Below are positions 123 to 28,128 of a DNA stretch of 32,737 bases, piece after piece. Every line of letters begins with the position of its first letter. Positions within the stretch are counted from its first letter, which is position 1. Position numbers and translations under genes: made by a program. The stretch comes from Acidimicrobiaceae bacterium (GTDB lineage Bacteria > Actinomycetota > Acidimicrobiia > Acidimicrobiales > RAAP-2), in the NCBI GenBank assembly GCA_003138855.1, contig PLHF01000025.1, forward strand, positions 26,312-59,048. The letters run 5' to 3'. The notes under the pieces are model-generated. The model was not told the DNA's origin. It saw only the letters and a program-made list of their open reading frames with translations, and ran no database searches.

Positions 123-2327
123 CTATTCGTGGGCGAAGCGCACGGGCGGGAGGACCCGCTTCAGCCACTTGGGCTCCCACCAGGCTGCGTTCCCCGTCAG
201 GCGGAGGAGCACCGGCAACAGGAGCAGGCGGACCAAGAGGGCGTCGAGCAGCACGGCAACCCCGAGGATGATGCCCATCTCCTTGGGCGGGAGCGGTCCG
301 GACAGGGCGAAGGTGAAGAACACGGCCACCATGACCGCCGCTGCCGCGAAGATGACCCGCCCGGAGTGGGCCAGGCCATTGACCATGGCGTCCTTGGGGT
401 CACCCGATCGTTCGTAGTGCTCTTTGGCACTCGAGAGGAGGAACACGGTGTAGTCCATCGAGATGGCGAAGATCATGGCGAAGAAGAACACCGGCCCCCA
501 GGCATCGAGGAATCCTTGGGGGGTGAAGCCCAGCAGGCCATGGAGCCATCCGTTCTGGAAGATCAGCCGGGCCACCCCGAAGGCTCCACCGGTGGCCAGC
601 AGGCTGGTGAGCACCCCGAGTGCGGCAATGAGGGGTGCCTGCAGGGCCACCAGCAGCACCAGGAAGCCGAGGAGCAGCACCAGGCCGATCACCTCGGGTG
701 TCTTGGCAGCCAGCACGACCTGGAGGTCATGGTTCTCGGCGGCAGCCCCGCCGACCAGCGAGCCTGGGGGCAGGGTGCCCCGCAACCGGTCGATGGTGGT
801 CCTGATCGCCGGTGACGAAGGATCGACATTCGGCACCGCTCCGATCATGACCAGGTCCGCTGAGGTCGAGTGCTGGGCGGGCAGTGCCGCGGCGATGCCT
901 GGGTCATGGGCAAGAACGGCTTCTGCTGCTGTGGCATGGGCCGGCGTGGTGATGATCTGGAGCTGGCCGGGGGCACCGGGGCCGAACGCCGACTGCACCA
1001 GGTCGTAGCCGACCCGGGCGGAGTCGGTTGCCGGCACCACCTTGATCGACGGCATGGCGGTCCGGAGGCCGATCACAGGAGCCGCCAACAGGACGAGAAT
1101 GGCGACAGCCACGCCCCCGAACAGCCAGGGACGACGCCAGAGCAGCTCGCCCCACCGTCCGAAGCGTGCCGAGCGGTGCTCGCCGGAATGGACCCACTTG
1201 AGCGGGAGCGCATCCACCTTGTCGCCCAGCTTGCCCAGTACGGCCGGCAGCAGGGTCAAGGTGGCGAGGAGGACGAAGAAGACCGACAGCATGATGCCGG
1301 CGGCCATCGACTGGAACGCGGGAGCAGGCACCAGCATGACCGTCGAGAGCGCGATGAGCACGGTGAGACCCGAGAAGAGCACCGCCTTGCCCGCGGTGTC
1401 CATCGTCTCGCCCACCGACTCGCCGACGTGGCGATGCCGCCCGAAATGCGCTCCCCGGAAGCGGACCACGATGAAGAGGGCGTAGTCGATCCCGAGGGCC
1501 AGGGCGAACATCAACGCGAAGTTCATGGCCCAGATCGAGATCGGGGTCACATGGGTGAGCAGATCGAGGAGCCCTGCTGCACTCAACAGGCCGACCAGGG
1601 TCAGCAGCAAGGGAAGTCCTGCGGCCACGAGGGATCCGAAAGCCAGCAGCAGTATGATCAGGGTCACGGGCCAGGAGATCATCTCCGAGCGCAGCATGGC
1701 GGTCCGGTTGGCCGTATTGAAGTCTGACCACAGCACCGATGCACCGGTGGCGGCCACGGTCACTCCATCACCACTCAGCTGGCGAAGGGGCACCTGCAGG
1801 TCGTCGGCGGCCCGCACCATGGTGTTGGGGTCGGCGTTGGCCCCACCGAGGATGACCGCCGTCTTCCCATCGGCGCTGATCGACATACCGGGCTGAGGAG
1901 CCACGACCCGTCCGATCCGCGGGTCGGCGGCCAGGATCTTCTCAGCCTTGGCCACCACGGCCTGCACGGACGGGCTCGAGACCGGGCGATCGGCGGCGAC
2001 GACCACTTCGATGGCGGAGCTGGCCTGGCCGCCGAAGTCCTGCTGAGCCAGGTCGCGGACCTGCACGGACTGCGACCCGTTGGCCTGCCAACCGGCACCG
2101 CTCAGGGCGTGCTCGACACTCGGGGCGAAGACGGCCAGTACGGCGACGATGGCCAACCAGGACAAGAAGACCGTCCCCCGGTGCGAGGCTGACCATCGCC
2201 CGAGCTGCCCGAGTGGTCCGAGGTTGCTCGGCGGTGGCGTGCCGCCGGCTGCCCGCCGGGGAGCGTCCTCTGCAGGGTGGGCCGGGCCGTTGGCGACGAC
2301 CGTCGACGAGGTCGGGGAAGGAGTCAT
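123..2327 (-). CDS. MMPL-family (RND superfamily) membrane transporter
   Basis: A 734-residue polytopic membrane protein with the MMPL layout: one N-terminal membrane segment (about residues 48-68), a large extracytoplasmic domain, a block of five to six helices including NFALMFALALGIDYALF, a second extracytoplasmic domain, then a second helix block including AMIFAISMDYTVFLLSSAKE. The paired Asp-Tyr motifs (GIDYALF and SMDYTVF) lie in the helices that carry proton-relay residues in mycobacterial MmpL proteins. These transporters export lipids or small hydrophobic molecules using the proton gradient; the substrate here is unknown. The frame stays open further upstream, but an ATG at 2325-2327 gives the natural N-terminus, and the extension would run through a promoter region and the divergent thioredoxin gene. 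It is divergent from the thioredoxin gene, and a CsoR-type site lies 15 bases upstream of the start, which suggests control with the sulfur genes. Confidence 0.9.
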   Translation of the reverse strand: MTPSPTSSTVVANGPAHPAEDAPRRAAGGTPPPSNLGPLGQLGRWSASHRGTVFLSWLAIVAVLAVFAPSVEHALSGAGWQANGSQSVQVRDLAQQDFGGQASSAIEVVVAADRPVSSPSVQAVVAKAEKILAADPRIGRVVAPQPGMSISADGKTAVILGGANADPNTMVRAADDLQVPLRQLSGDGVTVAATGASVLWSDFNTANRTAMLRSEMISWPVTLIILLLAFGSLVAAGLPLLLTLVGLLSAAGLLDLLTHVTPISIWAMNFALMFALALGIDYALFIVVRFRGAHFGRHRHVGESVGETMDTAGKAVLFSGLTVLIALSTVMLVPAPAFQSMAAGIMLSVFFVLLATLTLLPAVLGKLGDKVDALPLKWVHSGEHRSARFGRWGELLWRRPWLFGGVAVAILVLLAAPVIGLRTAMPSIKVVPATDSARVGYDLVQSAFGPGAPGQLQIITTPAHATAAEAVLAHDPGIAAALPAQHSTSADLVMIGAVPNVDPSSPAIRTTIDRLRGTLPPGSLVGGAAAENHDLQVVLAAKTPEVIGLVLLLGFLVLLVALQAPLIAALGVLTSLLATGGAFGVARLIFQNGWLHGLLGFTPQGFLDAWGPVFFFAMIFAISMDYTVFLLSSAKEHYERSGDPKDAMVNGLAHSGRVIFAAAAVMVAVFFTFALSGPLPPKEMGIILGVAVLLDALLVRLLLLPVLLRLTGNAAWWEPKWLKRVLPPVRFAHE

Positions 2328-2341
2328 TGCGTTAGTTAACC

Positions 2342-2357
2342 ATACGGGGTAGGGTAT
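2342..2357. promoter_or_regulatory. CsoR/CstR-type operator-like site A
   Basis: ATACGGGGTAGGGTAT: one perfect GGGTAT arm and one degenerate arm (ATACGG instead of ATACCC) around four bases, the same 6-4-6 layout as the perfect site at 7617-7632. It lies 15 bases upstream of the MMPL ATG on the minus strand, where it could block transcription or initiation. The assignment rests on resemblance to known CsoR-family operators and on the CsoR-family gene at 2934. Confidence 0.55.
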
Positions 2358-2385
2358 CTGCAACGGATGGTTCGCGATTGTCGGA

Positions 2386-2401
2386 ATACCCACCCCGGTA
2401 T
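2386..2401. promoter_or_regulatory. CsoR/CstR-type operator-like site B
   Basis: ATACCCACCCCGGTAT: perfect left arm ATACCC, four-base spacer, right arm CGGTAT (five of six matches to GGGTAT). It sits 40 bases upstream of the thioredoxin ATG. A TTGTCG at 2378-2383 could be a -35 element, which would place the site in the promoter spacer and -10 region. Together with site A it would let one repressor control both divergent units. Confidence 0.6.
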
Positions 2402-2441
2402 ACCGGTTACAGTGAGCGACAGTCCTAGAGAGGAGCGAACG

Positions 2442-2819
2442 ATGGCCACAGTGGAGCTGACGAAAGAGAACTTCGATGAGGTGGTGTCGGCGAATGGCGC
2501 GGTGCTCGTGGACTTCTGGGCATCGTGGTGCGGGCCCTGCCGCGTGTTCGGGCCCATCTTCGAGGCTGCGTCCGGGCAACACTCTGACATCGTGTTCGGC
2601 AAGGTCGACACCGAGGCCCAGTTCGAGCTGGCCGGCTCCTTTGGCATCCAATCGATTCCCACACTGATGATCCTGCGGGAGCAGGTGGTCGTCTACTCAC
2701 AGCCCGGTGCCGTGCCCGGTGAAGCACTTGAGGACCTGATCACTCGTGCCGGTGCGCTCGACATGGACGAAGTGCATCGCGAAGTAGCGGCCCAACGGGC
2801 CGAGCAGAGCGCGTCGTGA
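2442..2819 (+). CDS. Thioredoxin
   Basis: A 125-residue cytoplasmic thioredoxin. The active site WCGPC places the redox cysteines at residues 30 and 33, and the cis-proline loop reads SIPT around residue 73; length and layout match classical TrxA proteins, with a slightly longer acidic and polar C-terminal tail. The ATG at 2442 is chosen because AGGAG precedes it at normal spacing; the frame is open further upstream, but that part crosses the operator-bearing promoter. Thioredoxins reduce protein disulfides and persulfides. As first gene of a run that also encodes a CsoR/CstR-type repressor and an SQR-like enzyme, it probably serves persulfide turnover rather than general redox housekeeping. 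That role is inferred from context only. Confidence 0.93.
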   Translation: MATVELTKENFDEVVSANGAVLVDFWASWCGPCRVFGPIFEAASGQHSDIVFGKVDTEAQFELAGSFGIQSIPTLMILREQVVVYSQPGAVPGEALEDLITRAGALDMDEVHREVAAQRAEQSAS

Positions 2820-2933
2820 GCCGGAGTACTCGTGACACGGGAATGGCCGTACACGAGAGAGCGGCAAGGTTGCAGAGTGCCGACATGGTTGACTACGGGC
2901 AGTCCGGATCGAGCGAGAAGAGAGGAATAGGGC

Positions 2934-3203
2934 ATGGAGCTTCCTGAGGATGTCGTCGACGATGTGCGCAAGCGCCTCCGGCGAGTGGCAGGGCAGGTCC
3001 AGGGTGTCGAGCGCATGCTCGAAGAGGGCCGGGAGTGCCGGGACGTCGTGGCTCAGCTGTCGGCGGCAACGAAGGCGTTGGAGCAAGCCGGGTTCAAACT
3101 CGTGGCCTCGGGCTTGGCGTTCTGCCTCGAGCACCCCGACCAGGCTGCCGCCGACGGGTATGCCATCGATGAGGTCCAGCGCATGTTCATGAAGCTGGCA
3201 TAA
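2934..3203 (+). CDS. CsoR-family (DUF156) transcriptional repressor, probably CstR-like persulfide sensor
   Basis: An 89-residue all-helical regulator of the CsoR/RcnR/CstR family, recognised by the N-terminal RLRRVAGQVQGVERML segment, an ECRDV cysteine at residue 35 and the LAFCLE cysteine at residue 64. In copper-sensing CsoR the third ligand is a His four residues before the second Cys; here that position is Gly60. The two cysteines without the His match persulfide-sensing CstR, in which they form a di- or trisulfide link between subunits. Start ATG has an AGAGGAA ribosome site about eight bases upstream. It lies between thioredoxin and a DUF302 gene, and three sites of the family's operator type occur in the same 5 kb, so it is the best candidate for the local repressor. 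Confidence 0.88.
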   Translation: MELPEDVVDDVRKRLRRVAGQVQGVERMLEEGRECRDVVAQLSAATKALEQAGFKLVASGLAFCLEHPDQAAADGYAIDEVQRMFMKLA

Positions 3204-3213
3204 GGGGCCCGTG

Positions 3214-3594
3214 ATGAAGGCGATCGAGACCACGATCGACCTGCCACTGGCAGAAGTGGAATCGGCAGTACGTGCGGCGCTCAGAGATCAGGGCTTCGGC
3301 GTGCTCACCGAGATCGACGTCGCCGCCACGCTCAAGGAGAAGCTCGGCATCGACCGAGCACCGCTCAAGATCCTGGGAGCCTGCAACCCGGGCTTCGCTC
3401 ATCGCGCCCTGACGATCGATCCCACGGTGAGCCTGCTGTTGCCCTGCAACGTCGTGCTCGAGACGGTCGGCGGCGGCACCCATGTGGCGATCGCCGACCC
3501 ACGGGAGCTCATGCCCGGCGAGGAGCTCGCCGACATCGCCGACGAGGCGGCGAGACAGCTCATCGCCGTGATCGACGCCATCGAGGGGAACTGA
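3214..3594 (+). CDS. DUF302 domain protein
   Basis: A 126-residue soluble protein (127 if the GTG at 3211 is used) with the DUF302 pattern: an N-terminal beta segment, a KEKLGI stretch, a CNPGFAHRAL motif (Cys near residue 57) and an LLPCNVVLE motif with a second conserved Cys. DUF302 has no established biochemical role; its proteins often occur beside sulfur and thiol genes, and the two motif cysteines suggest a thiol or ligand-binding function. The gene begins 7-10 bases after the repressor's stop codon and is surely cotranscribed with it. No signal peptide or membrane segment is visible. Confidence 0.85.
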   Translation: MKAIETTIDLPLAEVESAVRAALRDQGFGVLTEIDVAATLKEKLGIDRAPLKILGACNPGFAHRALTIDPTVSLLLPCNVVLETVGGGTHVAIADPRELMPGEELADIADEAARQLIAVIDAIEGN

Positions 3595-3721
3595 CTGTCA
3601 AGAGCCAGGAGAGCGGCGAGGGCTCCCTCTGGGGGCTGTCAAGCGGGCGGTCGTGTGAAGCGAACATCTGGCTCCTCGGGGGTCAGCAGGTTGTGCATTT
3701 GAACGGAATAGGGAGGCCCCA

Positions 3722-5179
3722 ATGGCACGTGTAGTGATTCTCGGTGCAGGTATCTCCGGCCACACGGCGGCACTGCACCTCAAGCGCCGGCTGAAGCGGG
3801 GCCACGAGGTGATCGTGGTGTCGCCTAATGCCAACTGGAACTGGATACCCTCCAACATCTGGGTGGGGGTAGGCCGGATGACGACCGATCAGGTGACCTT
3901 CCCTCTGCGACCGGTGTACCGCCGCAAAGGGATCGACTTCCGCCAGGCGCTGGCGGTGGCCATTCGACCGGAGGGAGACGGAGACCACGAGTCCGGGTCG
4001 GTCGACATCGTCTACACCGACCCGACGCGCCTGGGCGAAGAGGAGCGGCTGACCTACGACTTCCTCATCAACGCCACCGGGCCCAAGCTCAACTTCGCGG
4101 CCACCCCGGGGCTCGGCCCCGACGGGAACTCGCTGTCGGTGTGCACGGCGAAACACGCCGAGCAGACATCCGCAGCCTTCGACAGCATCGTCGACGCCCT
4201 GAAGAGGGGCGAGCGCAAGACGCTCGTCATCGGCGTCGGGCACGGCACGTGCACCTGTGAGGGGGCGGCATTCGAGTACACCTTCAACATCGAGCACGAG
4301 CTCTGCGAGCGAGGAGTGCGGGAGCTGGCCGACGTGGTCTACCTCACCAACGAGTACGACCTGGGCGACTTCGGCGTGGGGGGCATGTCCTTCGCTCAGA
4401 ACGGGTTCGTCACCTCGAGCAAGATGTGGACCGAGTCGCTCTTCCGCGAGCGCAAGGTCCGCGCCATCCTGCGTGCCCACGTGGAACGGGTCGAACCGGG
4501 GGTGATCCACTACGAACAGCTCGACGGGACCAAAGGCACGCTGGCCTTCGACTTCGCCATGTTGCTGCCACCGTTCCGGGGTGCCGACTTGAAGGCCTAC
4601 GACCGGCAGGGCGAAGACATCAGCGACCAGCTGTTCGCCCCGAACGGGTTCCTCCGGGTCGACGCCGACTACGCAGCGAAGCCGTTCGAGGAATGGACGG
4701 CCGAGGACTGGCCGAGCACCTACCAGAGCGTCGGCTACAGCAATCTGTTCGGGATCGGGATCGCCTTCGCACCTCCTCACCCAATCTCGCGCCCTCGGTC
4801 GACCCCGGACGGGACGGTCATCTCCCCGGCGCCCCCCCGCACCGGCATGCCATCGGGCGTCATGGGTCGCGTGGTGGCCCACTCCATCGCCGACAGGATC
4901 GAGCGGGGCGAGACAGCTCCGCTGCACAAGGCATCCATGGCTTCGATGGGTGCGGCCTGCATCGCTTCGGCCGGCGCCGGTATGCGCACGGGGACGGCGG
5001 CTGCGATGACCATGTACCCGATCGTCCCCAACTTCACCCGCTTTCCGGAGTCAGGGCGCAGCCTGAAGGAGACGACCGGAGAGATCGGGCTGGGTGCCCA
5101 CTGGACGAAGCTGCTCCTGCACTACCTGTTCCTCTACAAGGCGAAGGCTCGTCCCGGTTGGTTCCTCATCCCCGAGTGA
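3722..5179 (+). CDS. Sulfide:quinone oxidoreductase-like FAD flavoprotein
   Basis: A 485-residue pyridine-nucleotide-disulfide-type flavoprotein. It has an N-terminal FAD fold (GAGISG at 8-13), an NATGPK loop (117-122), cysteines at 141, 177/179 and 413 in the regions where SQRs place their three redox cysteines, and a C-terminal amphipathic tail (about 461-485, WTKLLLHYLFLYKAKARPGW) like the membrane-contact helices of SQR. SQR oxidises sulfide to persulfide or polysulfide and passes electrons to quinone at the inner face of the membrane. The ATG at 3722 follows a GGGAGG ribosome site. It lies 127 bases after the DUF302 gene on the same strand and is followed by a 48-residue ORF. Flavocytochrome c sulfide dehydrogenase and rubredoxin-type reductases are less likely, given the cysteine pattern and tail. 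Confidence 0.82.
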   Translation: MARVVILGAGISGHTAALHLKRRLKRGHEVIVVSPNANWNWIPSNIWVGVGRMTTDQVTFPLRPVYRRKGIDFRQALAVAIRPEGDGDHESGSVDIVYTDPTRLGEEERLTYDFLINATGPKLNFAATPGLGPDGNSLSVCTAKHAEQTSAAFDSIVDALKRGERKTLVIGVGHGTCTCEGAAFEYTFNIEHELCERGVRELADVVYLTNEYDLGDFGVGGMSFAQNGFVTSSKMWTESLFRERKVRAILRAHVERVEPGVIHYEQLDGTKGTLAFDFAMLLPPFRGADLKAYDRQGEDISDQLFAPNGFLRVDADYAAKPFEEWTAEDWPSTYQSVGYSNLFGIGIAFAPPHPISRPRSTPDGTVISPAPPRTGMPSGVMGRVVAHSIADRIERGETAPLHKASMASMGAACIASAGAGMRTGTAAAMTMYPIVPNFTRFPESGRSLKETTGEIGLGAHWTKLLLHYLFLYKAKARPGWFLIPE

Positions 5180-5221
5180 CCGCCCCCGACGTGTCCAGCC
5201 CCCTGCGAAAGGATCGACCCC

Positions 5222-5368
5222 ATGGATGACGCGGCAAGCAGTATCGCGGCAGCCCCCCTGCCGACACGAAAGACCCTGCGGGCCCGCTCGAGCCTGCCCT
5301 ACCAGGTGATGCGCTTCGTGGCCTTCAACATCCGGATGCTGAGGATGGTACGGAAGGGCCACCACTGA
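5222..5368 (+). CDS. Small basic protein (48 aa) paired with the SQR-like gene
   Basis: The ATG at 5222 with AAAGGA about eight bases upstream opens a 48-residue frame ending in KGHH and a TGA at 5366-5368. The N-terminal half is Ala/Ser-rich; the C-terminal half (LPYQVMRFVAFNIRMLRMV) is hydrophobic and strongly basic, fitting an amphipathic membrane-surface helix. It lies 42 bases behind the SQR-like gene on the same strand. I do not recognise a named family. I infer a small partner or membrane tether of the SQR-like enzyme from position and composition only. Confidence 0.6.
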   Translation: MDDAASSIAAAPLPTRKTLRARSSLPYQVMRFVAFNIRMLRMVRKGHH

Positions 5369-5462
5369 TCCGCGGACAGGTGCGTGGCTCGGACCCGTTG
5401 TTGAGTCCTTGTACGAAACCCGGGTTGCCAGGCAGCGACGGGGAGCGATCCGCGTGGTCAGA

Positions 5463-5476
5463 TGGCAAGATTGCCA
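5463..5476. repeat. Short perfect inverted repeat between convergent genes
   Basis: TGGCAA-GA-TTGCCA lies just downstream of the YeiH stop codon, in the 116-base gap between the convergent 48-residue gene and the yeiH-like gene. There is no T-run, so it is a poor intrinsic terminator. It may be a protein-binding site or may be chance. Confidence 0.3.
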
Positions 5477-5484
5477 CCCGACGC

Positions 5485-6579
5485 TCACGACAGCGTCCCG
5501 GTGGCCGCTTGGAGCCCGAGGCTCGTGACGGCGACCAGAACCCACAGGAGGGCGCCGAGTGTCAGTGGCTTGAGCCCTGCTCGTCGGACGTCGCCGAACC
5601 GGGTGGAGAGACCGATGGCGGCCAGAGCGACGGTGATCATGACCTGAGCGATGTCCGACAGGGCTCCGTGCCAGGCCCGAGGAATCAGGCCGAGCGTGTT
5701 GAGGGTGACCGCGAGGAGGAACCAGCCGATGAACACCGGGACGATACGGCGGACCTTCCCGAGCACGCGGGACGTGCCCACGGAGCCCTGTGCCTGGGCA
5801 CCTCGTGAACGCCAGAGCGCCAGGGCGAGGCAGATCGGGATGATCATGAGCGTTCGGGTCAGCTTGACCACCACCGCAAACGAACTGGCGCCGTGGCCGA
5901 AGACCGTCGAGGCGGCCACGACGGACGACATGTCATTGATGGCCGTGCCCGCCCAGAGGCCGAACGAGTGTGGTGACAGTCTCAAGAGGTGGCCGAGGGT
6001 GGGAAACGTCAGGACGGCGACGACGTTGAAGGTGAAGATGGTGGCGATGGCGTAGGAGACGTCGGCCTCCGCTGCGCCGATCACCGCATCGGTGGCAGCG
6101 ATGGCAGAGGCCCCGCAGATGCCGGTGCCCACCCCGATCAAGGTGCGGATGTCCTTGTCCACCCCGAGGGCCCGCCCGAGCAGGATCGCACCGACCAGGG
6201 CGACCGTGAGCGTTCCGAGGAGCATCGGAAGCGACGCCACCCCCGTGGTAATCACCTGATGGAACGACAGTCCGGTGCCGAGCACCACGATCGATCCCTG
6301 CAGGACCGCCTTGCTCGCGAATCCCAGCCCGGGGCGGGTCCTTTCCGAAGGCTGTCGGAGGAGCGAGATCGCTATTCCTCCGACGATGGCGAAGACCGGG
6401 GCGCCGACCACGGGAGCGAGACGGCCGAGGGCCGTCGCCGCGGCGGCGAGGGCGGCGGCTGCGAGCAGGCCAGGCAGGATTCCCGTCACCCGGCCCTGCA
6501 CCCAGTGTTGCGGTCCGGCTTGACGACGATCCGATGGTCGGGTTGCGACGTGATCCGCTCCGGTGCCCACGGGTACCAC
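5485..6579 (-). CDS. YeiH-family putative sulfate/sulfonate exporter
   Basis: A 364-residue membrane protein of the YeiH/UPF0324 family with about ten hydrophobic helices. Family marks include GTGICGASAI at 151-160, FTFNVVAVLTFP, and AINDMSSVVAAS near residue 222. Family members are annotated as putative sulfate exporters, and some are linked to sulfonate or sulfolactate efflux; the substrate here is not shown by sequence. The start is a GTG at 6577-6579; a second in-frame GTG three codons later is equally possible and no strong ribosome site separates them. It is divergent from a LysR gene, the usual yeiE-yeiH-like arrangement, with a palindrome in the shared region. In this neighbourhood it may export sulfite or sulfate produced by sulfide oxidation. 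Confidence 0.87.
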   Translation of the reverse strand: MVPVGTGADHVATRPSDRRQAGPQHWVQGRVTGILPGLLAAAALAAAATALGRLAPVVGAPVFAIVGGIAISLLRQPSERTRPGLGFASKAVLQGSIVVLGTGLSFHQVITTGVASLPMLLGTLTVALVGAILLGRALGVDKDIRTLIGVGTGICGASAIAATDAVIGAAEADVSYAIATIFTFNVVAVLTFPTLGHLLRLSPHSFGLWAGTAINDMSSVVAASTVFGHGASSFAVVVKLTRTLMIIPICLALALWRSRGAQAQGSVGTSRVLGKVRRIVPVFIGWFLLAVTLNTLGLIPRAWHGALSDIAQVMITVALAAIGLSTRFGDVRRAGLKPLTLGALLWVLVAVTSLGLQAATGTLS

Positions 6580-6628
6580 CTTCGACCCTGGGTCCCCGGT
6601 GCGGAAGGCCGGATTCGGTTGCGTCCCT

Positions 6629-6643
6629 ATAAGGTATCCTTAT
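6629..6643. promoter_or_regulatory. Palindrome overlapping the LysR start codon, candidate LysR operator
   Basis: ATAAGG-TAT-CCTTAT is a perfect inverted repeat of 15 bases in the divergent yeiH/lysR region. Its last two bases are the first two of the LysR ATG. It contains TAAGGT (6630-6635), a TANNNT -10 hexamer six bases before the ATG, so the LysR mRNA may be leaderless and occupancy of the site would block it (autorepression). The yeiH start lies 50 bases away on the other strand. A weak CsoR-like half site (ATACCT on the minus strand) overlaps it. Confidence 0.5.
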
Positions 6644-7550
6644 GCCACTCGCCGAACCGATTCCCGACATCCGCTCGCTCGACCTCTTGCGGAGCGTCGC
6701 CGAACAAGGCTCGATCCGGCAGGCCGCGGTGGCCCACAGCATCAGTCAGCCGGCGGCGAGCATGCGACTCCGCTCGCTGGAGCGAACCCTGGGCCTCGAG
6801 CTACTCGACCGATCCTCCGGACGGGCCCGCCTCACAGCAGCTGGAGTGGCGGTGGTGCACTGGAGCGAAGACGTGCTCGACAGCATGCGGACGCTGCTCA
6901 TGGGAACTGCAGCCGTCAGGTCGGAAGGGGAGACCCATCTCCGCGTCGTGGCCAGCATGACCGTGGCTGAGTACCTGGTCCCGGAGTGGCTCAATCGCCT
7001 CCGGGTGTCGGACCCGGCCATTGTGATAGCTCTCCAGATGGGAAACTCCGAACATGTCGTCGAGGTGATGAAGGGACGAGGCGCTGACCTGGGGTTCGTC
7101 GAAGGCCCACACGCACCGCCGGAGTTGAGATCCCGGGTCGTGCAGACCGATGACCTCGTGGTCGTGGTGGCACCCATGCATCCATGGTCGCATCGACGAA
7201 AGCCGGTGGATGCGTCCGAACTTGCCGCCACGCCGCTTGTTCTCCGTGAAGCCGGATCCGGAACCCGTGAGGTTCTCGAGACAGCTCTTCTTGCCTCGGG
7301 GCTCCAGCCGACACCTTTTGTCGAGTTGGGCTCGACGACGGCCATCAAAGCAGCCGTTGCCGCCGGTACCGGCCCGGGGGTGCTCAGCCGCCTCGCAATC
7401 GAGCCCGATGTCCGAGACGGCCGCCTGGTCATCGTGCCGACGGAGGGGATCTCCCTGGAGCGCTTGATCCGTGTGGTCTGGCCAAGGGACCGATCACCGT
7501 CGCCACTGGCGAGACGGCTTCTCAGGCAGATCGGTGGTGCCGCCGAATGA
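6642..7550 (+). CDS. LysR-family transcriptional regulator
   Basis: A 302-residue LysR-type regulator. The N-terminal winged helix-turn-helix is visible (about residues 13-60, with QGSIRQAAVAHSISQPAAS as helix-turn-helix), followed by a hinge and a two-lobe ligand-binding domain (about 92-295, starting LRVVASMTVAEYLVPEWL). The domain resembles the YeiE/CysL/CbbR branch, and the gene is divergent from a yeiH-like exporter, the classical arrangement for a regulator of that exporter. The likely effector is a sulfur oxyanion such as sulfite, inferred from family and neighbours. The ATG at 6642 overlaps the palindrome and may be leaderless; AAGG at 6631-6634 is an alternative weak ribosome site. 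Confidence 0.9.
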   Translation: MPLAEPIPDIRSLDLLRSVAEQGSIRQAAVAHSISQPAASMRLRSLERTLGLELLDRSSGRARLTAAGVAVVHWSEDVLDSMRTLLMGTAAVRSEGETHLRVVASMTVAEYLVPEWLNRLRVSDPAIVIALQMGNSEHVVEVMKGRGADLGFVEGPHAPPELRSRVVQTDDLVVVVAPMHPWSHRRKPVDASELAATPLVLREAGSGTREVLETALLASGLQPTPFVELGSTTAIKAAVAAGTGPGVLSRLAIEPDVRDGRLVIVPTEGISLERLIRVVWPRDRSPSPLARRLLRQIGGAAE

Positions 7551-7594
7551 CAGCTTCCAGCGATCCACTGAACCAGACCTGCCGCCGAGACGCG

Positions 7595-7632
7595 TTGCGA
7601 AGGCGGCTGTTCTCTGATACCCTATGGGGTAT
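7595..7632 (+). promoter_or_regulatory. Promoter with perfect CsoR/CstR-type operator (site C)
   Basis: A -35 hexamer TTGCGA (7595-7600), a 17-base spacer and a -10 hexamer TACCCT (7618-7623) lead to a predicted start of transcription at about 7630, right at the ATG of the next gene. The -10 is embedded in ATACCC-TATG-GGGTAT (7617-7632), a perfect 6-4-6 inverted repeat of the CsoR-family operator type that also overlaps the ATG. A repressor bound here would cover the -10 and the start of transcription. Confidence 0.7.
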
Positions 7633-7792
7633 GTGCAGAGAAGCTACGTGTCGCAAATGTGGTCGGCCAACCTGGAAGGGGTGTGGAGCCCACGTCGAGC
7701 AAGTGCTCGGTGATGTCCCACCTGCTGAGCGGTGCCAGTGCAGGTCAGAAAAGGCACTAGCCCCCAAGCGGAAGTCCTGGCTCTCTCGTTGA
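7631..7792 (+). CDS. Small cysteine-rich protein (53 aa)
   Basis: The ATG at 7631 gives a 53-residue protein starting MCREATCRKCGRPTWKGCG, with cysteines at 2, 7, 10, 18, 33 and 35. The CxxC and following cysteines suggest a small metal-binding or sulfur-carrying fold. I recall similar short unnamed actinobacterial proteins (MCR.V.CK.CGK.TW.GCG..V), but cannot confirm this here. An upstream in-frame start at 7547 would put the promoter and operator inside the gene, so the short form is preferred. There is no ribosome site, and the -10 hexamer lies seven bases before the ATG, so translation is probably leaderless. The stop overlaps the start of the downstream reductase. Confidence 0.7.
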   Translation: MCREATCRKCGRPTWKGCGAHVEQVLGDVPPAERCQCRSEKALAPKRKSWLSR

Positions 7793-9468
7793 GCGACTCA
7801 TCGGAAGCCAAGGCCAAGCACGTCGTCATCGTCGGCGGAGTCGCCGGTGGGATGTCCACGGCGACTCGTCTCCGCCGCCTCGATGCCGAAGTCAGCATCA
7901 CCGTCCTCGAACGGTCGGGTCACGTCTCTTTCGCCAACTGCGGCCTGCCGTACTTCGTTGGTGGCCTGATCGAAGAAGAAGAGGATCTTACGCTCCAGAC
8001 TCCGGAGCAACTGTTCGATCGGTTCCGACTCGATGCCAGGGTCAATGACGAGGTCATTGCCATCGACCGGGAGGCGCACGCAGTAACGACCCGTTCTACG
8101 GTTACGGGCCAGGAGGACATCGTCCCCTACGACAAGCTGGTGCTCAGCATGGGTGCCGCTCCGGTGCGCCCGCCCATCCCCGGGTACGAGAGGGTCCGCA
8201 CGCTGCGGACCGTTGAGGATGCAGCTCGTCTCGCCTCGGATGTCGACGTCGCACCTGCAACCGCTGTCGTCATCGGTGCTGGATTCATCGGGCTCGAGAT
8301 GGCCGAGAACCTCGTCGGTCAGGGGATCGACGTGACGATCGTCGAGGCAACTCCCCAGGTGCTTCCTCCCCTCGATCCCGAGCTCGCCATTCTGGTGAGC
8401 GACGAACTGATTGCGCATGGCGTCCACGTCGAGACGGGTGCGTCCGTCGCATCGGTCGAGGACCGGTCGGTCACCCTTTCCGACGGTCGGGTCCTTGCTG
8501 CCGATCTCGTGGTCGGTGCCATCGGCGTACGGCCTGATATCCGACTGGCAGAACTCGCTGAATTGGACCTGGGACCGAGTGGCGGCATCGCTGTGAATGC
8601 GGCGAATCAGACGAACGATCCTGCTATCTACGCAGTTGGTGATGCTGTCGAGAAGGCAGACGCCATCTCCCATGCCACTTCGCTCATCGCTCTTGCGAAT
8701 GTTGCCAATCGTCAGGGTCGCAGGGTCGCTGACCATATTGCTGGGCGACCTTCACACGCCGTCGCTTATCTTGGGACGGCAATCGTCAAGGTCTTTGACC
8801 TGGTCGCTGCGACCGTCGGTTGGAACGAACGGCGCCTGAAGGCTGCGGGTCGACCGTTCCGATCCATCCACTCACACCCCTTTGACCACGCGACCTACTA
8901 CCCCGGTGCAACTCGAATGGCGGTGAAGCTGATCTTCGACCCGAACGACGCGACCATCCTCGGTGCACAGATCGTTGGCCGGAATGGAGTTGACAAGCGA
9001 ATCGACGTGATTGCAACGGCGATGGCAGGCGGTATCACCGCCGACCGACTGGCTGACCTCGAACTGGCCTACGCCCCGCCGTTCTCTTCGGCCAAGGACC
9101 CGGTCAACCTGCTTGGCTACATGGCTGAAAACGTACTGAGCGGCGACTGTGACGTCGTCGATCCGCAGGAGCTCGACGGGCTCATCACGAAGGGATGGGC
9201 AGTCATCGACGTACGTACTGCAGAGGAGCACGCAACGGGGGCTATCGAAGGGTCGACGAATGTACCCATCGACTCGCTCCGAGACCACCTCGATGCACTC
9301 GGCAACGGTCCCGTCATCGTCTACTGCGAAGTAGGCCAACGCGGCCATACGGCGACTGCTCTGTTGCACGAACTCGGCATCGAGGCGCGCAATCTCGACG
9401 GTGGTTACCAGACATGGTCGGCATCGATGAGGGCTCAGGTAGAGAACGCAGCTGCGTCAATATCGTAG
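7789..9468 (+). CDS. CoA-disulfide reductase with C-terminal rhodanese domain (CoADR-RHD, NAD(P)H persulfide reductase-like)
   Basis: A 559-residue fusion. Residues 10-450 are an FAD/NAD(P) reductase of the CoA-disulfide reductase type: GGVAGGMS at 16-23, the active-site SFANCGLPYF with Cys51, a second Rossmann loop (IGAGFIGLEMAE) and a C-terminal dimer domain. Residues about 465-555 are a rhodanese domain with active-site loop CEVGQRG, Cys513. Proteins with this layout reduce CoA disulfide, CoA persulfide or polysulfide. The preferred start is the TTG at 7789, overlapping the TGA of the Cys-rich gene as TTGA; GTG codons at 7732 and 7738 are alternatives that would overlap that gene more deeply. 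It is driven by the promoter with the perfect CstR-type operator, so it is probably induced by persulfide. Confidence 0.9.
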   Translation: MSDSSEAKAKHVVIVGGVAGGMSTATRLRRLDAEVSITVLERSGHVSFANCGLPYFVGGLIEEEEDLTLQTPEQLFDRFRLDARVNDEVIAIDREAHAVTTRSTVTGQEDIVPYDKLVLSMGAAPVRPPIPGYERVRTLRTVEDAARLASDVDVAPATAVVIGAGFIGLEMAENLVGQGIDVTIVEATPQVLPPLDPELAILVSDELIAHGVHVETGASVASVEDRSVTLSDGRVLAADLVVGAIGVRPDIRLAELAELDLGPSGGIAVNAANQTNDPAIYAVGDAVEKADAISHATSLIALANVANRQGRRVADHIAGRPSHAVAYLGTAIVKVFDLVAATVGWNERRLKAAGRPFRSIHSHPFDHATYYPGATRMAVKLIFDPNDATILGAQIVGRNGVDKRIDVIATAMAGGITADRLADLELAYAPPFSSAKDPVNLLGYMAENVLSGDCDVVDPQELDGLITKGWAVIDVRTAEEHATGAIEGSTNVPIDSLRDHLDALGNGPVIVYCEVGQRGHTATALLHELGIEARNLDGGYQTWSASMRAQVENAAASIS

Positions 9469-10181: not shown

Positions 10182-12170
10182 TCACCCGCCTGGATGTCTC
10201 ACGCGGTCGGCGGCGATGCCGGCGATGTGGTCGAGAGCGCCGAGGTCCTTGAGGGCGCCGCGGCTGGCGACGGCGTCCGGCTCGGCGCCGAGCAGGATCT
10301 TCTTTACCGGAAGCTCGAGCTTCTTGCCGGACAGGGTCGTCGGGACGCCCGGGATCTGGTAGAGCTCGTCGGGGACGTGGCGTGGCGACAAGCCGGAGCG
10401 AATCGTCGCGCGGATCGTGGCCCCGAGCGCCTCGTCGAGGGTGACGCCGCTTGCGCAGACGACGAACAGCACGAGCGTGCCGGGCCCGTCGCCGCTCGGG
10501 TCCTCGAGGTGCACGACGAGGCTGTCGGTCACGCCGTCGATGTCGTCGATGACCCGGTAGATCTCTGCGGTGCCCACACGGATGCCGCCGCGGTTGAGCG
10601 TGGCGTCGGACCGGCCGGTGATGATGCACGAGCCGCGCGAGGTGATCGTGATCCAGTCGCCGTGGCGCCAAACGCCGGGATATTCGTCGAAGTAAGCGGC
10701 GCGGTACCGCGACCCGTCAGTGTCACCCAGGAACCCGATCGGCATAGAAGGCATCGGAGCGGTGACCACCAGCTCGCCCTGCTCGTCGATCACCGACCGG
10801 CCGGACTCGTCGAACGCCTCGACGTCGGCGCCGAGATAGCGGCACGAGATCTCCCCTGCCCATACCGGGGTGAGCGGATTGCCACCGACGAACGCCGAGC
10901 AGATGTCGGTGCCACCGCTGATCGACGACAACATCACGTCGGGCTTCACGGCGTCGTACACCCAGTGGAACTCATCGACAGGCAGCGGCGCCCCGGTCGA
11001 GCCCACGGAGCGAAGGTGCGACAGTTCGAACTCGTCACCGGGGCGCAGACCTGCGCGACGGCAAGCGACCAGATACGGCGCACCCACCCCGAGCCACGTG
11101 AGGCCGAGCTCCGACGCGACCCGCCATAACGTGAGGGGCCCGTCGGCATTCGGGTCCCCGTCGAAAGTCACCACGGTGGCGCCCACGAGCAGCCCCGCGA
11201 CGAGGTAGTTCCACATCATCCACCCGGTGGTGGTGAACCACAGGAACACGTCGTCGTCGCCCATGTCGGCGTGCAGGCCGATCACCTTGAGGTGCTCGAG
11301 CAGCATCCCGCCGTGCGCGTGCACGATCGGCTTGGGCAGCCCGGTGGTGCCCGACGAGAAGAGCACGTAGAGCGGATGATCCGATTCGACCTGGGCGAAC
11401 TCGAGATCCCCCCGCTCACTGGTGAACTGCTCCCAGCCGACGACCCCGTCTCCGAGGAGCGATGGGTGGAGGTACGGCAGGACCACCGTGGCGCGAACCG
11501 TCGGTAGGCCGGCGCGGATCTCGGCCAGTTCGTCGACCCTGCTCACGTCACGCGACCCGAAGCGGTACCCGTCGACCGCCAGTAGCACCATCGGTTCGAT
11601 CTGGCCGAACCGGTCGAGCACGGCGCGCACGCCGAACTCCGGGGCACAAGAGGTCCAGATCGCGCCCAGGCTCGCTGTGGCGAGGAAGGCGGCGATCGTC
11701 TCGGGAACGTTGGGTAGGTATGCCGCGACCCGGTCGCCGCGCCCGACGCCGAGGCGCAGTAAGCCGGCACGGGCGCGGGCCACGTGGTCGCGCAGGTCGT
11801 CGCGCGACCACTCCGTCGGGTCGACGGTCTGCGACCGGCCGACCACCGCCGGTCGGTCACCCCTATGGGCGAGCGCGTGCTCCGCGTAGTTCAGTCGGGC
11901 GCCTTCGAACCAGCGGGCGCCGGGCATCTCGCGCCCGGAGAGCACCCGCGTGTACGGAACGCTCGCCCGGACTCCGAAGAACTCCCACACGGTCGCCCAG
12001 AACTCCTCGAGGTCGTGGATCGACCAGCGCCACAACTCGTCGTAGTCGGCGAACCGGCGCCCGGTTCGCTGCTCGGCGAAGTCCATGAATCGGCCGAGGC
12101 GGGTGGTCTCTCGGGCGTCGGCTGGTGGAGACCACAGCACCGCGGGCTGCGAGTCAGGAGGTATGCTCAC
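10182..12170 (-). CDS. Acetoacetyl-CoA synthetase
   Basis: A 662-residue acyl-adenylate-forming enzyme of the acetoacetyl-CoA synthetase family (usual length about 650). Visible motifs are the ATP-binding loop LFSSGTTGLPKPIVHAHGG, WFTTTGWMMWNYL, the adenylate-binding region SSISGGTDICSAF, the hinge GRSDATLNRGGIRVG, and SGKKLELPVKK with the catalytic Lys near the C-terminus. It activates acetoacetate, the end product of leucine breakdown, to acetoacetyl-CoA. The start is a GTG at 12168-12170 overlapping the dehydrogenase stop as GTGA, so translation is coupled; the frame is open further upstream but only as an antisense-phase extension within the dehydrogenase gene. Last gene of the four-gene minus-strand liu-type operon. 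Confidence 0.92.
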   Translation of the reverse strand: MSIPPDSQPAVLWSPPADARETTRLGRFMDFAEQRTGRRFADYDELWRWSIHDLEEFWATVWEFFGVRASVPYTRVLSGREMPGARWFEGARLNYAEHALAHRGDRPAVVGRSQTVDPTEWSRDDLRDHVARARAGLLRLGVGRGDRVAAYLPNVPETIAAFLATASLGAIWTSCAPEFGVRAVLDRFGQIEPMVLLAVDGYRFGSRDVSRVDELAEIRAGLPTVRATVVLPYLHPSLLGDGVVGWEQFTSERGDLEFAQVESDHPLYVLFSSGTTGLPKPIVHAHGGMLLEHLKVIGLHADMGDDDVFLWFTTTGWMMWNYLVAGLLVGATVVTFDGDPNADGPLTLWRVASELGLTWLGVGAPYLVACRRAGLRPGDEFELSHLRSVGSTGAPLPVDEFHWVYDAVKPDVMLSSISGGTDICSAFVGGNPLTPVWAGEISCRYLGADVEAFDESGRSVIDEQGELVVTAPMPSMPIGFLGDTDGSRYRAAYFDEYPGVWRHGDWITITSRGSCIITGRSDATLNRGGIRVGTAEIYRVIDDIDGVTDSLVVHLEDPSGDGPGTLVLFVVCASGVTLDEALGATIRATIRSGLSPRHVPDELYQIPGVPTTLSGKKLELPVKKILLGAEPDAVASRGALKDLGALDHIAGIAADRVRHPGG

Positions 12171-13309
12171 CCGACCGGCAACCCGAGGCCGCGGGCCAGC
12201 ACCAACCGCTGGATCTCGCTCGTACCCTCGCCGATCTCGAGGATCTTGGCGTCGCGGTAGAAGCGCACGATCGGCGTCTCCTCGATGAAGCCGGCTCCGC
12301 CGAACACCTGGGTGGCGACCCGCGCAGCGGTGACCGCGCTCTCGGTGGAGTACAGCTTGGCCATTGCCGCAGCCTGCCCGATCGGGCGGCCCTGGTCCTT
12401 CAACCATGCCGCCTTGTAGGTCAGGTTGTGGGCGTTCTCGATCGCCACGGCGAGGTCGGAGAGTTGGAATGCCAGTCCCTGGAAGCGACCGATCGGGCCT
12501 CCGAAGGCATGGCGCTGCTTGGCGTAGTCGACGGCGTGCTCCAGGCATGCCCGCGCGCACCCCAGCGCGAGCGCCGAGATCGCGATCCGGCCGTCGTCGA
12601 GGATCGAGAGGAAGTTGCGGAACCCGTCTCCGGGCTTGCCGAGCAGGTTGGCCTCGGGCACCCGACAGCCGTCGAGGAGGAGGCCGTGGGTGTCACTGGC
12701 GTGCCAGCCGAGCTTGCGGTACCCGGGCTCGATGACGAGGCCCGGAGTGCCGGCCGGCACGACGAACGCGGAGATGCCGTCGTCGGTGCGAGCGGTGACT
12801 GTGATGATCGAGGTGATTTCCGTACCGCAGTTGGTGATGAACGCCTTGCTGCCGTCGATCACCCACTCGTCACCAGCGAGGCGGGCCCGGGTCCGGGTGG
12901 CGCCGGCGTCACTGCCACCGTCGGGCTCGGTCAGCCCGAATGCGCCAAGCGAGCGACCGGCGACGAGGTCGGGCAACCAGCGGTCCTGCTGTTCCTCGTT
13001 GCCGAATTGGTGGATCGGGTTGGCGCCCAGGCCGACCCCTGCCGACAGCGTGATCCCCATCGACTGGTCGACGCGGCCGATCTCCTCGATAGCCACGCAC
13101 AGCGAGGCGAAGTCGCCGTCACCCCCACCCCACCGTTCGGGGAAGACGAGCCCGAACAGCCCGAGATCGCCCATCGCTCGCGCGACTTCGACGGGGAAGT
13201 GGTGGTCGCGGTCCCACTGGGCGGCGTGCGGTGCGATCTCCGACTGGGCGAAGTCGCGCACGACATTGCGGAACATCTCGTGGTCGTCGCTCAGTTCCCA
13301 ACTGCTCAT
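12167..13309 (-). CDS. Acyl-CoA dehydrogenase (short-/branched-chain type)
   Basis: A 380-residue FAD acyl-CoA dehydrogenase with both family signatures: GAFGLTEPDGGSDAG (about 121-135) and a C-terminal QVFGGAGFIEETPIVRFYRD block. The catalytic base is Glu361 in EIGEGTSEIQ, the short-chain/branched-chain position. In isovaleryl-CoA dehydrogenases this residue is Ala or Gly, and the base sits on an earlier helix (LER motif); the matching helix here reads DDGRIAISALALG and has no Glu. Its location between biotin carboxylase and acetoacetyl-CoA synthetase suggests isovaleryl-CoA oxidation, but the residue pattern leaves a different acyl substrate possible. Its ATG overlaps the stop of the biotin carboxylase gene as ATGA. 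Confidence 0.92.
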   Translation of the reverse strand: MSSWELSDDHEMFRNVVRDFAQSEIAPHAAQWDRDHHFPVEVARAMGDLGLFGLVFPERWGGGDGDFASLCVAIEEIGRVDQSMGITLSAGVGLGANPIHQFGNEEQQDRWLPDLVAGRSLGAFGLTEPDGGSDAGATRTRARLAGDEWVIDGSKAFITNCGTEITSIITVTARTDDGISAFVVPAGTPGLVIEPGYRKLGWHASDTHGLLLDGCRVPEANLLGKPGDGFRNFLSILDDGRIAISALALGCARACLEHAVDYAKQRHAFGGPIGRFQGLAFQLSDLAVAIENAHNLTYKAAWLKDQGRPIGQAAAMAKLYSTESAVTAARVATQVFGGAGFIEETPIVRFYRDAKILEIGEGTSEIQRLVLARGLGLPVG

Positions 13310-28098: not shown

Positions 28099-28128
28099 TA
28101 TATACACACTGGTGTATGTGTTGGTCAA
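28099..28128 (-). promoter_or_regulatory. Promoter and operator of the arsR-SRPBCC operon
   Basis: On the minus strand TTGACC (28123-28128), an 18-base spacer and TATATA (28099-28104) form a good promoter. The inverted repeat ATACAC-ACTG-GTGTAT (28102-28117) fills the spacer and touches the -10, the usual location for an ArsR self-operator. Transcription would start at about the GTG start codon, so the mRNA is likely leaderless. Confidence 0.65.

Follow-up and report, generated by a model that had tools for sequence, protein, structure and literature searches.

A candidate CstR-type regulon linking sulfide-handling operons and an MMPL-family exporter through a shared 16-base site in an Acidimicrobiaceae bacterium

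The stretch of DNA analyzed here, called the window, comprises 32,737 nucleotides of an Acidimicrobiaceae bacterium (assembly GCA_003138855.1, contig PLHF01000025.1, positions 26,312–59,048). Sulfide-handling operons in it and, unexpectedly, an RND/MMPL-type exporter are very probably switched by a CsoR-family repressor of the CstR type through a shared 16-base site, ATACCC-N4-GGGTAT. We regard it as highly probable that the window holds the core of such a regulon, made up of the repressor, its operators, the sulfide-handling units and the exporter gene; the operator, the linkage of the genes and the cysteine pattern of the repressor are established by comparison with related sequences. In the mechanism that we infer, the reduced repressor encoded at 2934, possibly with a paralogue encoded on contig C49, would bind the 16-bp operators. 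These would overlap the promoters of the MMPL gene, of the trx-cstR-DUF302 unit that probably extends into the putative sulfide:quinone reductase (SQR) gene, and of the pair formed by a Cys-rich gene and a CoA-persulfide-reductase/rhodanese gene. Outside the window they would overlap the promoters of a YgaP-like gene with an S-adenosylmethionine (SAM) methyltransferase gene, and of a second cluster. Bound repressor would block RNA polymerase. Upon oxidation of sulfide to persulfides, the putative effectors, Cys35 and Cys64 would become persulfidated or cross-linked and the repressor would release the DNA. The induced set would then serve sulfide oxidation, reduction and transfer of persulfide sulfur, thiol methylation and substrate export.

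The operator sites and the CstR-type repressor

An initial annotation of the window had described three sites with this plan, and all three are present: site 1 (ATACGGGGTAGGGTAT) at 2342–2357, site 2 (ATACCCACCCCGGTAT) at 2386–2401 on the plus strand in the trx-cstR promoter, and site 3 (ATACCCTATGGGGTAT) at 7617–7632, with 2, 1 and 0 mismatches to the motif, respectively. They exceed what chance produces. The window contains 1 exact site, 2 sites at ≤1 mismatch and 4 at ≤2 mismatches; in 300 dinucleotide-preserving shuffles of it, an exact site never arose, and the window's counts at ≤1 mismatch (shuffle mean 0.013) and at ≤2 mismatches (shuffle mean 0.37) were never reached. Allowing up to three mismatches leaves only a weak excess, with 10 sites against 5.49 expected, a number reached by 5 of 100 shuffles. 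The window site at 28102–28117 (ATACACACTGGTGTAT) was taken as a chance occurrence; it is without the CC/GG that is nearly invariant in sites with ≤1 mismatch.

The repressor gene (2934–3203, plus strand) encodes 89 amino acids and matches the CsoR/RcnR family (Pfam Trns_repr_metal, PF02583) at 3e-21 and 76 bits, the cut-off being 22.8. When aligned to 7mq1, a CstR, its Cys35 and Cys64 occupy the X and Z positions, and Gly60 is found where the copper CsoR proteins 4m1p and 4adz have His. In copper CsoR the residue at this place is the copper-ligand His of the Y position. The Cys-His-Cys site of copper CsoR is thus absent from the repressor, which has Gly60 in place of the His; C35, G60 and C64 are invariant across 15 aligned sequences. 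The PDB entries 7mq1-3, presumably from S. pneumoniae, are labelled CsoR. Since 7MQ2 is given as a CstR in the consulted part of a review, and 7mq1 and 7mq2 are identical in sequence, the match is to a CstR.

The operator points the same way. According to the available portion of the published account, ScCsoR of Streptomyces coelicolor, an actinobacterial CsoR-family repressor that senses sulfane sulfur, has Cys37 and Cys66, 29 residues apart as are Cys35 and Cys64 here, and recognizes a 16-bp operator, ATACCn6GGTAT, at several promoters including its own (PMC7533328). Sites 2 and 3 fit ATACC-N6-GGTAT exactly and site 1 does so except for its right half, CGTAT. Both the likeness to known CsoR-family operators and the assignment of the repressor to the CstR type, which the initial annotation had proposed, are supported in this way.

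The motif was then counted in related loci. A search of 248 genomes of the order with the CstR protein gave a match at E≤1e-12 in 99 of them. Sixty of these matches were retrieved together with the flanking DNA, following the ranking apart from G236, which was placed before five matches of slightly better score. Scanning named genomes with a profile supplied the best 80 of 258 relatives, nearly all from metagenome-assembled genomes titled Acidimicrobiaceae, Acidimicrobiales or Actinomycetes/actinobacterium. With two loci of the bacterium itself the set amounted to 142 loci, and removal of 22 duplicates left 120 non-redundant loci (118 obtained via the CstR protein) of 1.78 Mb. They contain 121 exact, 72 one-mismatch and 44 two-mismatch sites. 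For 0, 1 and 2 mismatches the control patterns gave 0, 0 and 22 (reversed motif), 0, 1 and 14 (GC-swapped), 0, 2 and 76 (AT-swapped), and 0, 9 and 170 (scrambled). The exact and one-mismatch sites are accordingly taken as signal and the two-mismatch sites largely as background. At least one site at ≤1 mismatch is present in 111 of the 120 loci, so that the motif does stand beside orthologous genes in related genomes, the check that had been suggested for the initial annotation. The exact motif also follows the repressor from genome to genome: of 82 genomes with a CstR match at E≤1e-18, a cut-off chosen after the match list had been viewed, 64 have it, compared with 21 of the 166 other genomes (Fisher p 1e-24; this and the other genome-level p values across the 248 genomes ignore shared descent). 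At the looser E≤1e-12 the counts are 73 of 99 and 12 of 149.

Genes were scored for a site at ≤1 mismatch within −300 to +30 of their starts, which were extrapolated from alignments, so that sites can escape scoring. Such a site precedes 34 of 37 Trx, 29 of 41 Cys-rich, 25 of 40 MMPL (one further MMPL match has a two-mismatch site only), 62 of 125 CstR, 11 of 22 SQR, 9 of 15 YgaP-like, 12 of 44 methyltransferase, 13 of 46 CoA-disulfide reductase (CoADR)/rhodanese, 4 of 29 LmbE, 1 of 9 DsbA and 1 of 13 LysR matches, and none of the DUF302 (0/35), YeiH (0/11) and 48-aa protein (0/8) matches. For MMPL the score errs in both directions: a site between Trx and MMPL in L063 was not credited to MMPL, a trx-side site in divergent loci can be credited to it, and 8 of the 40 MMPL matches span fewer than 600 residues. 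A survey of the open reading frames (ORFs) behind sites, independent of the gene list, added TauE, a lactamase-fold/rhodanese protein and OsmC, for which promoter sites were counted in 4 of 17, 23 of 59 (these may include lone rhodaneses) and 4 of 6 cases; 52 of its 209 assignments fell outside all defined families, many of them singletons and some plainly spurious ORFs. We take the lactamase-fold/rhodanese protein to be persulfide-dioxygenase-like. Since a persulfide dioxygenase, a rhodanese and TauE are, together with csoR, known targets in S. coelicolor (PMC7533328, in the portion available), the motif is tied to persulfide control by evidence that does not depend on the window. A PIG-L/LmbE deacetylase gene, seen left of the window at L015:10897-11577, recurs near CstR, and the 29 LmbE matches scored above are its places, 4 of them with a promoter site. 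Enzymes of this type act in mycothiol metabolism.

In the genome of the bacterium itself (4.0 Mb, 155 contigs) the exact motif is found in three places, C25:23938, which is 2.4 kb left of the window, C25:33928, which is site 3, and C49:15857, all of them belonging to one of two clusters, the window's own and a paralogous one on C49. Allowing one mismatch adds four places, three of which also lie inside these two clusters. The operator left of the window stands in promoter-like sequence ahead of two genes, one for a membrane protein resembling YgaP and the other for a SAM methyltransferase; the latter has Methyltransf_25 as its top domain match and scores 33 bits against TPMT (cut-off 26). The second cluster repeats MMPL, SQR, the Cys-rich gene, the methyltransferase and the motif, in the order two operators, MMPL, CstR, YgaP-like, DsbA-like, operator, SQR, 48-aa protein, Cys-rich and methyltransferase, followed by LysR and YeiH. 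Its SQR has an exact operator of its own, and its Cys-rich gene is located inside the SQR unit and is not fused to an operator. The paralogue pairs between the clusters are 54–80% identical (eight pairs compared). Counting the operator 2.4 kb to the left and the three of the C49 cluster, the regulon of three operators proposed initially keeps its three sites and grows in number to at least seven operators in the genome. At ≤2 mismatches the genome holds 54 places, 8 of them in the two clusters, against 12 for the reversed pattern. Five of the 46 places outside the clusters were looked at: C132:3459 was rejected for lying inside an ORF, and C44:1634, C125:18254, C116:470 and C50:14104 have nothing promoter-like within about 150 bp on each side, no gene search having been made.

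The repressor at 2934 had been called the only member of its family here; it is the only CsoR-family gene placed in the window and one of four found by a search of the genome, two of the CstR type and two of the copper type. The CstR paralogue on C49 is 74% identical to it and likewise has Cys at X and Z and the Gly. The other two, read by eye from translations, have the Cys-His-Cys pattern and adjoin an ORF that we take to be YHS-type permease-like. Left of the window, on C25, a degenerate stretch at L015:8080-8145 (KALEQAAPRLVAARLPHCLEHP) behind an aminotransferase-like ORF resembles what is left of a third copy of CstR. Given its identity to the repressor at 2934 and the same motif in its own cluster, the C49 paralogue, alone or jointly with that repressor, could regulate the sites of the window. 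This appears possible rather than probable, for most of the 99 genomes with a CstR match list a single one, yet such loci have the same sites.

Several observations weigh against a regulon built on the repressor at 2934. The genome has two CstR paralogues, either of which may act at a given site. Two positions of operator 1 differ from the consensus, the SQR gene of the window has no site of its own, and the genomic excess of two-mismatch places is not accounted for by the regulon. Among the genomes, 18 of 82 CstR-positive ones are without an exact site and 21 of 166 CstR-negative ones have one. A promoter site at ≤1 mismatch is missing from 15 of 40 MMPL and 12 of 41 Cys-rich matches, and is present for only 62 of 125 CstR matches.

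The Cys-rich and MMPL promoters

The Cys-rich gene (7631–7792, plus strand) encodes a 53-aa protein with C2, C7xxC10, C18xxH21, C35 and C37 and is predicted to be leaderless. No match to the protein was found in Pfam, NCBIfam or the PDB. Its family could be aligned in 24 rows, and the predicted fold, a hairpin and a helix, is of low confidence (pLDDT 68, pTM 0.39). Ahead of the gene, a −35-like TTGCGA (7595–7600) stands 17 bp before TACCCT, and an extended −10-like element, TGATACCCT (7615–7623), overlaps operator 3; both boxes are assigned from the sequence. Operator 3 is perfect and runs into the start codon, the A and T of the ATG being its final two bases. Taking TAC at its operator position and GT directly before the ATG as the criterion, this fusion of operator and start codon is found in 27 of 42 Cys-rich genes, the window counted. 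In the 27 fused promoters the operator is perfect in 21 cases and preceded by TG in 22; 20 read exactly TGATACCCT and 25 contain TACCCT. A leaderless mini-gene in which −10 element, operator and ATG are fused (7615–7641 in the window) is predicted, and is new here. A search by DNA alone for TGATACCCTNNNGGGTATGTG at ≤1 mismatch in 396 genomes of the phylum returned 12 places in 11 genomes. Eight of these, the window included, lead straight into the Cys-rich protein. All eight belong to the same order as the window, and at least two of them are already among the loci; no Cys-rich protein follows at the remaining four, which are from genomes outside that order. In L204 (genome G438, same phylum), TGATACCC...GGGTATG reads into a 158-aa protein which, by eye, is unrelated to the Cys-rich family.

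The conserved block at the Cys-rich gene might instead be a promoter or leaderless start element and not an operator. In L066, L152 and L171 TGATACCCT...GTATG is kept though the right half of the palindrome is altered, and 17 of the 27 fused genes use AGA as their third codon, whereas beyond that position AGA accounts for 9 of 324 Arg codons in the 42 genes. A start element of this kind would not call for the perfect operator retained in 21 of the 27 fused copies, nor for the palindrome that four unfused genes (L071, L091-L093) still have just upstream, and we consider it unlikely.

As read from the sequence, the operator takes up different registers relative to the promoter boxes, all of which would block RNA polymerase. 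For SQR, counted without a control, the TTG of the −35 element starts 3 bases before the operator in 5 of 11 cases and TAnnnT is found at +20 in 6 of 11. For Trx, TAnnnT starts at the last TAT of the operator in 20 of 35 and, for the Cys-rich gene, at operator position 2 in 26 of 32, again without controls; in these two −10-like boxes (offsets +13 and +1) the TA consists of operator bases, so that just the last T is informative.

The MMPL gene (123–2327, minus strand, ATG at 2327) encodes an RND-type exporter of 734 aa that matches Pfam MMPL in two stretches (6.4e-65) and is predicted to be leaderless. Operator 1, which reads ATACCCTACCCCGTAT on the minus strand (2342–2357), lies in its promoter 6 nt before the ATG, flanked by a −35-like TTGCAG (2363–2358) and a −10-like TTAACT (2339–2334), boxes assigned from the sequence. 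The degenerate site reported initially at 2342 proves to be real: a site recurs at the −22 offset before the MMPL orthologues of L110, L111, L112, L114 and L140, where it shows 2, 2, 2, 1 and 0 mismatches, although the MMPL match in L110 covers 49 residues only. The genome has six MMPL genes. The window copy is 56% identical to that on C49, and at most 31% identical to three other full-length paralogues over alignments longer than 300 residues (34% over a piece of 144 residues). The CstR-linked MMPL proteins look like a dedicated exporter family, which is new here; no link of CstR or of sulfide/persulfide with MMPL transporters was found in the literature searched, as judged by title and abstract.

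Operators 1 and 2, whose centers are 44 bp apart in a single divergent intergenic region, could form a tandem pair serving trx-cstR only, with site 1 degenerate and any control of MMPL incidental. This is very unlikely. L140 keeps a perfect site on the MMPL side while that on the trx side is lost, and the MMPL gene on C49 has two operators of its own with no trx beside it. In loci that are centered on CstR, no more than 700 bp separate 31 of 40 MMPL matches from a CstR match, and cstR-MMPL pairs stand behind a site in L082, L083, L086 and L090. Of the six MMPL genes just the window and C49 copies have the motif in their fetched loci.

Spacer length and the copper-type CsoR

The half-sites ATACCC and GGGTAT are shared with copper CsoR, and the two types of loci differ in the spacer between them. 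Using the copper-type CsoR of the bacterium as query, thirty copper-type loci (L217-L246) were returned, out of 108 genomes with a match at E≤1e-20. They have no N4 site at ≤1 mismatch; N5 sites, 14 exact and 12 with one mismatch, are found in 24 of the 30; examples of such sites are L019:2768-2784 and L018:4704-4720. The 120 CstR loci, by contrast, have 193 N4 sites against 2 N5 sites. Of these two, that in L108 is exact and has a copper-type CsoR at a distance of 2.8 kb, and that in L101 has one mismatch. In the genome of the bacterium itself each of the two copper csoR genes has a one-mismatch N5 site at its start or about 20 bp before it, that of C126 running into the csoR start codon. No exact N5 site was found in this genome, and none at ≤2 mismatches in the window. 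Across the genomes N5 follows copper CsoR (52 of 108 with it, 15 of 140 without; p 5e-11) and shows no dependence on CstR (p 0.14 and 1.0), while N4 shows no dependence on copper CsoR among CstR-negative (9 of 50 versus 12 of 116; p 0.2) or CstR-positive genomes (p 1.0).

Identical half-sites, the two copper-type genes in the genome and the look of known copper CsoR operators might suggest that the sites belong to a copper-type CsoR and not to a CstR, which is highly improbable given the N5-without-N4 copper loci, the excess of N4 in CstR loci, the N5 sites at both of the genome's own copper csoR genes and the independence of N4 from copper CsoR among CstR-negative genomes. The spacer difference is perhaps wider than the order, judging from two Streptomyces operators in print. 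The copper CsoR of S. lividans shares the fold and the ATACCC/GGGTAT half-sites; it differs in being a copper sensor whose operator has an N5 spacer (ATATACCCCTNAGGGGTATAT; PMC3902906), while the 16-bp operator of the S. coelicolor sulfane-sulfur CsoR equals N4 (PMC7533328), as far as the accessible parts of the two papers describe them. A statement of the N4/N5 difference was not found in the literature searched; the primary papers on S. aureus CstR are outside it, so the difference may already be in print.

Other genes of the window and related systems

The gene content given initially holds throughout: MMPL at 123–2327 on the minus strand, Trx at 2442, the CsoR-family gene at 2934, DUF302 at 3214, the SQR-like gene at 3722, the Cys-rich gene at 7631 and CoADR-rhodanese at 7789. 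The enzymes linked to the repressor in the window are an SQR-like protein, a CoA-persulfide reductase (CoAPR)-like protein and Trx, as would suit a role in sulfide and persulfide handling. The thioredoxin (2442–2819, plus strand) has the CGPC motif and matches Pfam at 5.7e-25 and TIGR01068 with 98.7 bits (cut-off 96.8). The DUF302 gene (3214–3594, plus; Pfam DUF302 5.6e-22) is probably internal to the operon, because none of the 35 DUF302 matches in related loci has a site of its own. The SQR-like flavoprotein (3722–5179, plus) matches sulfide-quinone reductase 3sz0 by phmmer (E 2.8e-35), and its Cys141 and Cys179 pair with Cys of 3sz0 in an alignment read by eye; the score against the NCBIfam model is weak, 44 bits against 525. 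Of the run from trx to SQR described initially the gene order stands, and a site directly before SQR is absent from the window, for which reason we infer its membership of the trx-cstR unit only. SQR is followed by a basic 48-aa protein (5222–5368, plus) without a Pfam family, and the SQR on C49 is also followed by a paralogue of it, 55% identical.

The gene at 7789–9468 (plus) encodes a predicted CoA-disulfide/CoA-persulfide reductase with a C-terminal rhodanese. It matches Rhodanese (3.2e-16), the PDB entries 3icr (3.6e-145) and 8a56, titled 'Coenzyme A-persulfide reductase' (4.6e-143), and TIGR03385 with 428 bits, below the cut-off of 578.8. Having both domains and two catalytic-type cysteines, Cys51 in FANCGLP and Cys513 in YCEVG, it belongs with the CoADR-Rhod proteins.

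YeiH (5485–6579) and a YeiE-like LysR (6642–7550), between the second and third units, were left out of the regulon because a site was found for 0 of 11 YeiH and 1 of 13 LysR matches. YeiH with a divergent YeiE-like LysR is seen in both sulfur clusters (window 5485–7550; L016:2219-4289) and perhaps constitutes a separate sulfite circuit. Downstream of CoADR-rhodanese, and opposite to it, is an AMP-binding enzyme with an acetyl-CoA synthetase N-terminal domain (10182–12560). Just left of the window start twelve N (L015:12300-12311) lie within the 5′ part of a Nudix ORF.

Related systems are compared here from those parts of the published accounts that were available. The targets in S. coelicolor are those named above; the targets here would be MMPL, Trx, DUF302/SQR, the Cys-rich gene, the CoA-persulfide reductase and the methyltransferase, and the clusters are duplicated. 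The CstR of S. aureus, of E. faecalis and of 7mq1-3 has, as here, a dithiol site without the copper His, and in E. faecalis CstR controls CoAPR, a homologue of the protein at 7789–9468 (PMC9405070, PMC9774590). Those regulons differ in belonging to Firmicutes, and no MMPL or leaderless Cys-rich gene was met in the available accounts of them. YrkD of Bacillus licheniformis is likewise a CstR-like repressor of sulfur genes and represses the sqr-pdo cluster, which differs in being a single 11-gene cluster under co-control by NreBC (PMC9918477). Mesorhizobium NreA offers a tested case of a leaderless transcript with a CsoR/RcnR-family operator in the −35/−10 spacer; unlike the arrangement proposed here, it senses nickel and its operator (−30 to −12) is apart from the start codon (PMC12724321). 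Thermus TTHA1953 is also a CsoR-family repressor of sulfur genes, with a different operator (TACNNTACNNNNGTANNGTA) and Sox genes as targets (PMC10318464).

The initial reading largely holds, being right in its core, and the regulon is wider than was stated. We find it fairly likely that in this order CsoR paralogues with the same half-sites are kept apart by one base pair of spacer, N4 for persulfide and N5 for copper, and that the persulfide regulon includes a dedicated MMPL family for a product of sulfur stress and a leaderless Cys-rich gene in which −10 element, operator and start are fused within about 19 bp. The spacer difference would bear on how close CsoR-family paralogues with identical half-sites avoid cross-talk and, if true, would allow sulfur and copper regulons to be told apart in genomes by counting one base. 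The persulfide-responsive regulon would be extended to a deep actinobacterial order, and an exporter family and an orphan Cys-rich protein, both of them conserved, would be added to persulfide defence.

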